This document shows positions 26,930 through 41,633 of a stretch of DNA of 64,000 nucleotides, piece by piece. Under the pieces are notes generated by a model, which made no database searches, was not told where the DNA came from, and worked only from the letters and a program-made list of their open reading frames with translations. The translations under genes were made by a program, and so were the position numbers. Location of the stretch: the IMG/VR virus record IMGVR_UViG_3300033146_003848, positions 82,141 to 146,140 of that record; one strand, given 5' to 3'. Position 1 is the first letter of the stretch, and each line of letters begins with the position of its first letter. Source of the stretch: a virus.

Positions 26930-27120
26930 TGAAGAAACCAAAACAACGATGTCGAATGTTGAGTAGACAAAACCAAATAAATCCATATGCAACCCTTCAA
27001 CGAAATGAAAGTGTGAGTAGTAAGTCACTCCCCCTCTATTATATCGTCAGCCCTCAAATGAAACCAATTAGTCGACGAAAACCCAACACCCCCGGTGTTA
27101 AACAAAGGAGAATATTATGA
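26929..27120 (+). CDS. Hypothetical basic protein, 63 aa
   Basis: Starts inside TAATGA at the end of the CxxC gene; no strong ribosome site. Strongly basic and proline-rich. No family recognised. Confidence 0.4.
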   Translation: MKKPKQRCRMLSRQNQINPYATLQRNESVSSKSLPLYYIVSPQMKPISRRKPNTPGVKQRRIL

Positions 27121-27539: not shown

Positions 27540-27918
27540 AATTTACTGCATCCTATTCCCTCTTCATATTAGTCCATCCAAATAACCGCAACCCATCCAA
27601 TGAAAATCACCATTTTTTGTCCGTCCAATGTCGAACCAATACGTGTGTTGTTGCGTGTAGACAAATTAAACCGTCCGACCATTACCAACCAATACCAACC
27701 AACCAATACCAACCAACCAATACCAACCAATACCAAATTATCCATTGTCGACTTATAAAATATAGGGATCCTCAATTAATCATTTTCAATACTATTAATT
27801 GGTCCTCATTTTTTACCATAAGGACCTCCAATTTCTTATAATTTATAGGCGACTTTTGTTTGTTTTTTTGGTCTTCATCCTTTTTCCTTATATAAGGCGA
27901 ATTACTTATATGGAATAT
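27540..27918. other. Non-coding stretch with CCAA-type repeats
   Basis: No gene with a ribosome site. Contains the tandem repeat listed separately and several dispersed CCATCCAA-like words. Cytosine-rich on the + strand, unlike its neighbours. Confidence 0.6.
27683..27736 (+). repeat. Tandem TACCAACCAA-type repeat
   Basis: About five imperfect 10-14 bp units made of ACCAACCAAT and TACCAACCAA. Translations of this stretch in any frame are low-complexity and lack ribosome sites. Confidence 0.8.
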
Positions 27919-27947
27919 TTGACAGGGTCATTTAATTATGATATACT
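27919..27947 (+). promoter_or_regulatory. Early-type promoter without a gene behind it
   Basis: TTGACA at 27919-27924, 17 nt, TATACT at 27942-27947 with TGA. The next 200 nt hold no ribosome-site-bearing gene but several stems, so it probably makes a small RNA. Confidence 0.8.
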
Positions 27948-27953
27948 ATTAAA

Positions 27954-28136
27954 GTGAGTGAGACTTTTTGTTTTTTCAACACTCACCCTGGTTTCCCTTA
28001 ACCGATAAAATTAAGGGACCCTGCGTACTTGTGATGATGGATCCTATTAGTGATTGCCTTGGGCGTGACGCGTTGAAGGTGACTTCGACTTTTAGGATCC
28101 TCACTTTAATGACAATTGTAAGGGCCAGTGCGAATA
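27954..28136 (+). ncRNA. Candidate structured small RNA
   Basis: Begins at the expected start of the promoter at 27919. Stems visible: GTGAGTG (27954-27960) with CACTCAC (27980-27986); TCCCTTAA (27994-28001) with TTAAGGGA (28011-28018); GGATCCTA (28039-28046) with TAGGATCC (28093-28100), enclosing GAAG/CTTC at about 28076-28087. GC is higher than the surroundings. No terminator is clear; the 3' end is set by the next promoter. Confidence 0.5.
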
Positions 28137-28155
28137 AAAATAAAAGTCATTTTAT

Positions 28156-28184
28156 TTGACTTGGTTGTTTTATTGTGTTATAAT
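28156..28184 (+). promoter_or_regulatory. Early promoter with hairpin and AGTC/GACT leader
   Basis: TTGACT at 28156-28161, 17 nt, TATAAT at 28179-28184 with TGT. Hairpin AAACAAT / ATTGTTT at 28193-28214, then the GAGTCAGAAAAGACT leader and ATCGGAGA. Confidence 0.9.
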
Positions 28185-28266
28185 ATGTATATAAACAATT
28201 GAAATTGATTGTTTGTGTTTTTAATACTTTTTTGAGTCAGAAAAGACTATAACATCGGAGACTATT

Positions 28267-28917
28267 ATGAGTGAAGTAAAAAAAGAAATCGTTAATGGCA
28301 ATGAGGCTCCAATTGTACACGGCATTGATTCATTAGAGGCTGAAATGAATGCGATGAACGGTATTCCTGTTGAGGTGTCTAAGAAGTCTATCAAATTAAA
28401 AGGGACTGCAAGGGTCGAGAGGCCTGTTCCTAGAGAGCCGAAGAAGAAATTGAAGATGGCTGCACATGCAAAATTTTTTAAGGCGAATGGTGGAAAGAAG
28501 AATGCGGATCAATTGAAAGTGAATTACAAAATGGTTGCAGAGTGGGTTCGTAGTATCATTGAAATTTACAACGTGAAGGATCACTTTGAAGTACATTGTA
28601 AGAGGAGTAAAAAGGACGTAAAGAACGTGGACTTCAATAAGGACGTTGCAGTGAGTAAAGAGAACCCTCGTACAGTGAAGAAAGAAGTGTATGCGGTTGT
28701 TTTTAATCGTAAAGAGGGTGATGAAGTGATTGAAGTACGCAAGGATCAATACAAGTCAGAAGAAATGTTGGTTAGGTCTCTCGCAAATATGGTGTACTTT
28801 GCGACTGCGAAAGTAAAAGAGTACGCGGCTGACCATAAAATTGAGCCACAATACGAGAAAAAAGTGGCTACTGAGGCTAAAACAGTGAAAGAGACTGTGT
28901 CCAACGAAAAGAAGTAA
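28267..28917 (+). CDS. Lysine-rich basic protein, 216 aa, probably highly expressed
   Basis: Lys makes up a large share of residues, with a proline/lysine linker (RPVPREPKKKLK) near residue 55. Codon choice differs from the neighbours (many GCG, CGT, GTG, AAG), the gene has a consensus promoter and an intrinsic terminator, all of which suggest strong expression. No family recognised; a nucleic-acid-binding protein is the simplest guess. Confidence 0.7.
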   Translation: MSEVKKEIVNGNEAPIVHGIDSLEAEMNAMNGIPVEVSKKSIKLKGTARVERPVPREPKKKLKMAAHAKFFKANGGKKNADQLKVNYKMVAEWVRSIIEIYNVKDHFEVHCKRSKKDVKNVDFNKDVAVSKENPRTVKKEVYAVVFNRKEGDEVIEVRKDQYKSEEMLVRSLANMVYFATAKVKEYAADHKIEPQYEKKVATEAKTVKETVSNEKK

Positions 28918-28935
28918 TCATTAGGACTATTATGA

Positions 28936-28971
28936 AGTGAGGACTTATTCAGTCCTCACTTTGGCTTTTTT
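28936..28971 (+). terminator. Intrinsic terminator
   Basis: 10-bp stem AGTGAGGACT / AGTCCTCACT, 5-nt loop TATTC, then TTGGCTTTTTT. Confidence 0.85.
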
Positions 28972-29639
28972 CGTATTGATTCCCTATTAGGACGGACTCC
29001 ACTTAGGGAGGTAGGGTGTGGGACGAAGGCTCTCAATTAATATAGTGGAAATAGTGTATGCCCTTTTCATTAATGGGTATTAGTGGTTGACTTGTATGCA
29101 ACGATAAAAAATTCTTAATAGTAAAGTGCAAGTGAAGTAATTTTTGTTCTTAAAGTCACACTATCATATATTGTTGGTCATTATATTGATTCGCCGGTTC
29201 GTCTGTGTCGCGAAAGGGCACGTACTTAGTAGTATAGTATTGATGAATCCTGTGTTTTTATGGGAACGAGTGCCGGTTTCCCTTAACCATCGAGGATCCT
29301 GGACTTATGGTCAATGGATATGCGTGTTTGCGAGGATTGGATCCATTTAGGACGGACTCCACTTAGGACGGTCGAATTCGGGATAAAATTGGAAACCGGC
29401 ACGGTTGAAATCATTAGAGAAAATCGTCACTAGGACTTGTTTATATTGGACTGATAGGATTTGAGTGGACTTTTTCGTTTTCGCCTCGAGGTGATCCTAT
29501 TTCTTGGGTTGGATGGTTGAATGGTTATGAGTACTTAGTGGTAACCGACTTTTTATTGATTTGAGTCGGATTTGTATGGTGTTGCCGGTTGAAATCATTG
29601 ACGGATTTCGTCACTACACAATTGGTTGGAATTTTCACT
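28972..29639. other. Non-coding stretch with dispersed repeats
   Basis: No gene with a ribosome site. Contains two copies of TTAGGACGGACTCCACTTAG (about 28988 and 29348), two of GGTTGAAATCATT...TCGTCAC (about 29402 and 29588), and GGTTTCCCTTAACC at 29268-29281, also present at 27991 inside the candidate RNA. Higher GC than elsewhere. Confidence 0.6.
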
Positions 29640-29989: not shown

Positions 29990-30018
29990 AGTATAACATA
30001 TAATATCAACCGAGTCAA
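29990..30018 (-). promoter_or_regulatory. Early sigma70-like promoter with 5' hairpin
   Basis: On the - strand TTGACT (30013-30018), 17 nt, TATACT (29990-29995). Hairpin GAAAGTA / TACTTTC at 29958-29981. Divergent from the promoter at 30052; the unit is shared with 31894 and 32327. Confidence 0.9.
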
Positions 30019-30051
30019 CGTTATAATGAATTATTTTAAATTATTATTTTA

Positions 30052-30080
30052 TTGACACGGTTGATATTATATGTTATTAT
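30052..30080 (+). promoter_or_regulatory. Early sigma70-like promoter
   Basis: TTGACA at 30052-30057, 17 nt, TATTAT at 30075-30080 with TGT. Confidence 0.75.
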
Positions 30081-32439: not shown

Positions 32440-32471
32440 GAAACCGGCACTCTGTGACGAGTGCCGGTTTC
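32440..32471 (-). terminator. Strong hairpin at end of - strand operon
   Basis: 12-bp perfect stem GAAACCGGCACT / AGTGCCGGTTTC with an 8-nt loop, two bases beyond the stop at 32473. No U-run, but very stable. Confidence 0.65.
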
Positions 32472-41337: not shown

Positions 41338-41522
41338 CTGATGGATCTCATCCAGGATCCAGGGAATATTTTGGCTGATGGATCTCATCCAGGATCCAGG
41401 GAATATTTTGGCTGATGGATCTCATCCAGGATCCAGGGAATATTTTAACTGATGGATCTCATCCAGGATCCAGGGAATATTTTAACTGATGGATCTCATC
41501 CAGGATCCAGGGAATATTTTGG
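41338..41522. repeat. Five 37-bp tandem repeats
   Basis: Exact period 37: units start at 41338, 41375, 41412, 41449 and 41486. Each has TGGATC...GATCCA inverted ends (8-nt gap) followed by GGGAATATTTT. Units 3 and 4 differ by AA for GG at the end. GC-rich islands in an A/T-rich spacer at the point where transcription diverges. Confidence 0.9.
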
Positions 41523-41633
41523 CTCAGGATGTCGGAATATTTCGGAGGTGTTCGGAACGTGATGGAACTTCGTGGATTTTAATGGGAACCTGGGAAATTT
41601 TTTTAGGAAGGAGACTTTTTATTGAAATAATAA

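Follow-up and report, generated by a model that had tools for sequence, protein, structure and literature searches.

A candidate replication origin at a strand-composition switch near an isolated early promoter in a distant T4-like phage

The window analysed here is a 64,000-nt stretch comprising bases 82141-146140 of the 146,140-base IMG/VR virus record IMGVR_UViG_3300033146_003848, and all positions are counted from its first base. GC content is 30% overall, and the phage genome contains no tRNA genes. Judged by its predicted tail sheath, topoisomerase II subunits and SbcC/SbcD-like proteins, the phage is a distant T4-like myovirus. Relatives of the tail sheath are at 33% identity, and scans via the tail sheath or the DNA polymerase found no close relative. 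The sole close relative that we found, the 10-kb contig IMGVR_UViG_3300009504_000112, was reached at another gene; its tail tube is 83% identical. The locus of interest is a gap without a called gene (27540-28266), near which a block of rightward genes ends and the transcribed strand switches.

Within this gap, on the + strand, lies an early promoter, P1 (27919-27947), with the sequence TTGACA-17-TATACT, an extended TG and a GG after the -35 box. A consensus early promoter at 27919 had been proposed in a sequence-only reading of the window, and this assignment is well founded: apart from the extended TG, P1 matches the consensus at 11 of 12 positions, and with a weight matrix built without P1 itself it scored 21.3 bits, ranking 35 among all positions of the 146-kb genome. 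It belongs to a class of early promoters of the form TTGACW-n-GG...TATnnT that has 28 exact members in the 146-kb record, P1 included, and the GG after the -35 box is common to P1 and the 27 others. We infer that transcription would start at about 27953-27955.

We defined a clear ribosome site as a Shine-Dalgarno (S-D) sequence GGAG, GAGG or AGGA, and sought a start bearing such a site within 900 nt of each promoter. For 45 of 49 strong promoter matches an S-D-bearing start was found within this distance, at a median of 58 nt; the other 4 look intragenic or have a nearby start with a weak site. Only 2 of the 45 lie >180 nt from an S-D-bearing start. One is P1, at 313 nt, and the other is listed at 352 nt, although its sequence suggests that a start with a weaker site probably lies closer. 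We conclude that P1 stands out by its distance from the next gene start; the RNA region thus has a promoter of its own and no nearby gene, as would be expected for a stand-alone phage small RNA.

The ~200 nt that follow P1 correspond to a structured, probably untranslated RNA region (27953-28150, +) that is single-copy within the phage genome. Three stems of 7, 8 and 8 bp had been noted here, and all three are exact. Hairpin H1 (27954-27986; GTGAGTG at 27954 with CACTCAC at 27980, 7 bp) would stand at the 5′ end of the transcript. Hairpin H2 (27994-28018) is formed by the 8-bp arms TCCCTTAA/TTAAGGGA at 27994 and 28011, with pair probabilities of 0.74-1.0 within 27953-28150, and the long hairpin H3 (28039-28100) has an 8-bp base, GGATCCTA/TAGGATCC, with arms at 28039 and 28093 and a pair probability of ~1.0. 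At least two stems of 8 bp occurred in 2.1% of shuffled sequences, and the number of 7-bp stems was reached in 0.1%. The predicted fold of 27953-28150 has an energy of -60.9 kcal/mol (z -3.95 relative to shuffles), and the best 160-nt segment (27951-28110) gave z -5.07 on the + strand and -3.64 on the - strand, favouring the + strand. Since z was below -3 in 8% of segments at 22-42 kb, with comparable folding in many spacers of this phage, we conclude that the fold is real but not rare in this phage. The locally high GC content noted earlier also holds, at 42% for 28000-28149 compared with 30% overall.

Consistent with the earlier failure to see a frame with a ribosome site, we found no convincing S-D-borne reading frame in the ~200 nt between P1 and the next promoter. 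A 41-codon ATG frame has a poorer score than any of 61 S-D-borne small open reading frames. A 63-codon TTG frame has a codon score that is not clearly non-coding; it has no ribosome site, and mainly for this reason we rejected it, and with it a small protein from the RNA region. A terminator scan found no terminator-like site between P1 and 28933, and at 28137-28171 there is a weak AAGTCA/TGACTT hairpin whose U tract is poor. The sequence thus supports an arrangement in which P1 is followed by structured RNA that is probably untranslated.

Immediately downstream is a second early promoter, P2 (28156-28184, +; TTGACT-17-TATAAT), which serves the next gene. P2 and its 5′ leader form an A+T-rich block (28151-28266, +), which has about nine further copies elsewhere in the genome, similar in sequence and mostly partial; GC content is 25% at 28150-28299, but this is a generic repeated leader. 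The promoter-plus-leader block (28176-28269, with copies at 16.1, 24.1, 33.7, 34.4, 35.3, 36.3, 37.5 and 38.6 kb) is conserved, includes two small hairpins and precedes several early genes on both strands. Given that the block has copies elsewhere, the P1 RNA appears to be an addition ahead of a standard gene start. The gene itself (28267-28917, +) encodes a lysine-rich orphan protein of 216 aa for which searches found no family or relative, the only match being a sub-threshold one to DUF2659. Its structural model is a weak alpha-beta-beta-beta-alpha arrangement with a pLDDT of 55.7; dsRNA-binding, HPF-like and T7 gp1.2-like folds were considered and set aside, since the matches were weak and the model was of low confidence. 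An intrinsic terminator follows the gene (28933-28963, +; a 13-pair stem and then a T run, -17.8 kcal/mol).

Upstream of P1, by ~190 nt, are perfect 14-nt direct repeats: Tandem Repeats Finder reported 3.4 copies of the iteron-like unit ACCAACCAATACCA at 27684-27730 (+), with a 100% match. The sequence GGATCC is clustered at 27.5-29.6 kb, with 5 sites observed and 0.25 expected. A separate tandem array at 41.3-41.5 kb, with 5.1 copies of the 37-nt unit CTGATGGATCTCATCCAGGATCCAGGGAATATTTTGG (41338-41524) in an interval where no gene is called, holds 5 of the 21 GGATCC sites in the genome. The 14-mer GGTTTCCCTTAACC does recur, as had been noted, with its second copy starting at 29275 rather than 29268; this recurrence could be due to chance.

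The strongest signal at the locus is a switch in strand composition, and it points to replication, a possibility absent from the sequence-only reading. We measured skew at fourfold-degenerate third positions and subtracted the coding-strand bias. Silent sites on the + strand flip from C/A-rich to G/T-rich at ~27.7-28.4 kb: G relative to C declines between 20 and 27.5 kb, then rises abruptly. The G/C step has a z of 6.0-7.1 (2, 3 and 5 kb windows) and is the largest in the genome; elsewhere, upward steps do not exceed 3.0-3.8, and downward ones extend to -3.4 to -4.3. The largest A/T step of the genome coincides with it, in the opposite sense. The skew test was chosen after the raw skew table had been seen; when whole genes were permuted, covering all positions, an equal step arose in 1 of 2000 trials (P = 0.0005), and the maximum lies between the genes at 27117 and 28267, placing the switch in the gap at 27540-28266. 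In the raw skew, too, the gap is the largest upward switch. Silent sites in the + strand genes to the left of the gap are C-rich (-0.5 to -0.67 at 25.4-27.5 kb). To its right, the closest two - strand genes are G-rich on the + strand; hence, gene direction is not the cause of the switch. Leading strands are usually enriched in G and T, and the pattern therefore fits two replication forks diverging from ~28 kb. The bias is local, fading within ~8 kb on the left side and ~4 kb on the right. This limited reach may be due to multiple origins or to early forks that move slowly, or could weaken the case for an origin. A second silent-site step, near 40.8 kb, has a z of 2.6 and is not significant by itself.

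We looked for relatives of the RNA region in several ways. Rfam covariance models (6S, GOLLD, ROOL, riboswitches and others) gave no match at the gathering score; a weak partial match to the cobalamin riboswitch, seen with one cut of the sequence, was gone with another cut, and we rejected it. No relative was found by blastn against phages, nor was the pattern of the RNA core found in a collection of viral contigs, and its one match in a collection of genome contigs was archaeal and was taken as chance. A 14-mer scan matched 102 stretches, approximately the number estimated by chance, and 30 viral records that share a widespread protein had only chance-level matches to the RNA region. Searches with neighbouring proteins found no relative covering the locus. 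Hence, none of the collections searched supplied an RNA homologue for covariation analysis. We also compared the RNA with 204 ribosome-site regions of the phage. The best and top-five duplex energies showed no enrichment over shuffled RNA, and the mean over all ribosome sites was marginally lower than in shuffles (2 of 120). Complementarity is thus not clearly enriched, and targeting of phage ribosome sites by the RNA was rejected.

We propose, with a probability of about 0.45, that the locus is a bidirectional replication origin of a T4-like phage, centred in 27540-28266 and transcribed from P1. RNA polymerase would start at P1 and produce a structured untranslated RNA running through the gap, and transcription would probably continue through the A+T-rich leader of P2 into the gene for the 216-aa protein. 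On the model of T4 origins, some of this RNA might stay annealed to the template as an R-loop, or hold the duplex open, with the A+T-rich block as a possible unwinding zone; the 3′ end of the RNA would then start rightward leading-strand synthesis. The upstream iteron-like repeats could bind an initiator, although we identified no initiator protein for the candidate origin. Several observations argue against an origin. No relative showing conservation of the region was found; unwinding within the RNA part is disfavoured by its G+C content, which exceeds that of the genome; the A+T-rich leader that follows belongs to a promoter block of a generic kind; and the skew is local rather than genome-wide.

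The folds may have a more specific role. In ColE1, the RNA II pre-primer is a promoter-driven RNA whose 5′ stem-loops lie ahead of the priming zone. The P1 RNA resembles it in being promoter-driven, as predicted, and in having 5′ stem-loops that precede a possible priming zone, but the locus lacks a strong promoter in the opposite direction that could give an RNA I-like antisense RNA, and there is no homology. It is in our estimate quite unlikely that, together with iterons, the replication primer depends for its formation or positioning on 5′ hairpins of an early non-coding transcript, as for RNA II.

A possible but less probable explanation is that the P1 RNA forms a long, structured leader at the 5′ end of the mRNA for the 216-aa protein and tunes the translation or stability of that mRNA. 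P1 would be a distal promoter additional to the proximal P2, perhaps with feedback from the basic 216-aa protein. The RNA and the gene are on the same strand with no convincing terminator between them, and one predicted fold of the long transcript places the ribosome-site stretch GGAGACT in a helix with GGTTTCC (27990-27996). P2 gives a short leader, as in other genes. Nonetheless, P2 alone would be enough for the gene, and no relatives were found that would show a conserved alternative pairing. A leader would also leave the skew switch unaccounted for, although an origin can coexist with it; the two explanations do not exclude each other.

The sequence-only reading had favoured a small RNA, decoy or regulator, and this is unsupported. 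A free-standing RNA of ~200 nt between P1 and P2, acting in trans on RNAs or proteins of the host or the phage, would account for a good promoter so far upstream of the next start with a clear ribosome site and for a fold with z of -4 to -5, and intergenic small RNAs are known to be abundant in some phages (PMC4933390). A closing helix (27962/28148) may also form and would stop just short of the P2 -35 box, but this hinges on the assumed 3′ end of the RNA. The weakness or absence of a terminator, the unclear target enrichment, and the failure to find an Rfam match or any conservation in the collections searched all weigh against such an RNA, which we consider unlikely. We conclude that the site more likely serves as a replication start, or as a leader for the gene downstream, than as a decoy RNA that stands alone. 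It is very improbable that the locus has no function, being a relic or duplicate of a promoter beside a spacer that folds by chance, with a skew switch of other cause. The frequency of strongly folding segments nearby (~8% with z below -3), the many palindromic spacers in the phage and the restriction to a single lineage fit that explanation, but the P1 score is far above background and the skew step was matched by only 1 of 2000 permutations.

If the locus is an origin, it resembles oriE, oriF and oriG of T4, which adjoin switches of transcription and base composition (PMC3016281): here, too, a predicted promoter, strong by its sequence, lies at the candidate origin of a T4-like phage, with a switch of transcribed strand and of nucleotide bias nearby. 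The shift in nucleotide bias seen at some T4 origins is present at the gap, as are iterons, which in T4 belong to oriE only. T4 oriE has 12-nt iterons, without a shown role as of a 2010 review, and seems to require an early promoter (PMC3016281); the direct repeats here have 14-nt units, and their binding is only putative. The locus differs from the T4 origins in that gene blocks converge on it rather than diverge, the transcript would begin with G+C-rich hairpins, no sequence homology was found, and the origin is a predicted one. If correct, our proposal would locate an origin of a divergent phage from sequence alone, via a silent-site strand bias corrected for gene direction, would delimit a 700-bp candidate segment, and would add another case of iterons plus an early promoter to set beside T4 oriE.

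As a short gene-free RNA in a lytic phage, the predicted P1 RNA is also comparable to the intergenic band C and D RNAs of T4 and sRNA1/2 of PAK_P3 (PMC4933390), but those are observed transcripts, whereas the P1 RNA is predicted and has no clear terminator. The large phage RNAs GOLLD and ROOL (PMC12286853, PMC7567579) are likewise structured and gene-free, but the P1 RNA is much shorter and matches neither in Rfam, and its genome is without tRNA genes. A nearby second region without a called gene (28964-29639; GC ~40%, G/T-rich on the + strand) is comparable to GOLLD and ROOL in length. It contains TTAGGACGGACTCCACTTAGG twice, CGGTTGAAATCATT twice and the arms GTGCCGGTTTCC/GGAAACCGGCAC, and pieces of it recur at 32457 and at 35.5, 36.8 and 38.0 kb. 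Further along, at 29993-30077, an inverted repeat with 41-nt arms, 83% complementary, joins two divergent early promoters. Finally, at 40796-40690 on the - strand, a promoter (TTGACT-17-TATTAT) is followed by a terminator, a clean hairpin plus T8, at ~35 nt past the expected start, and no gene is evident in the interval; this is arguably a better small-RNA candidate than the P1 RNA.
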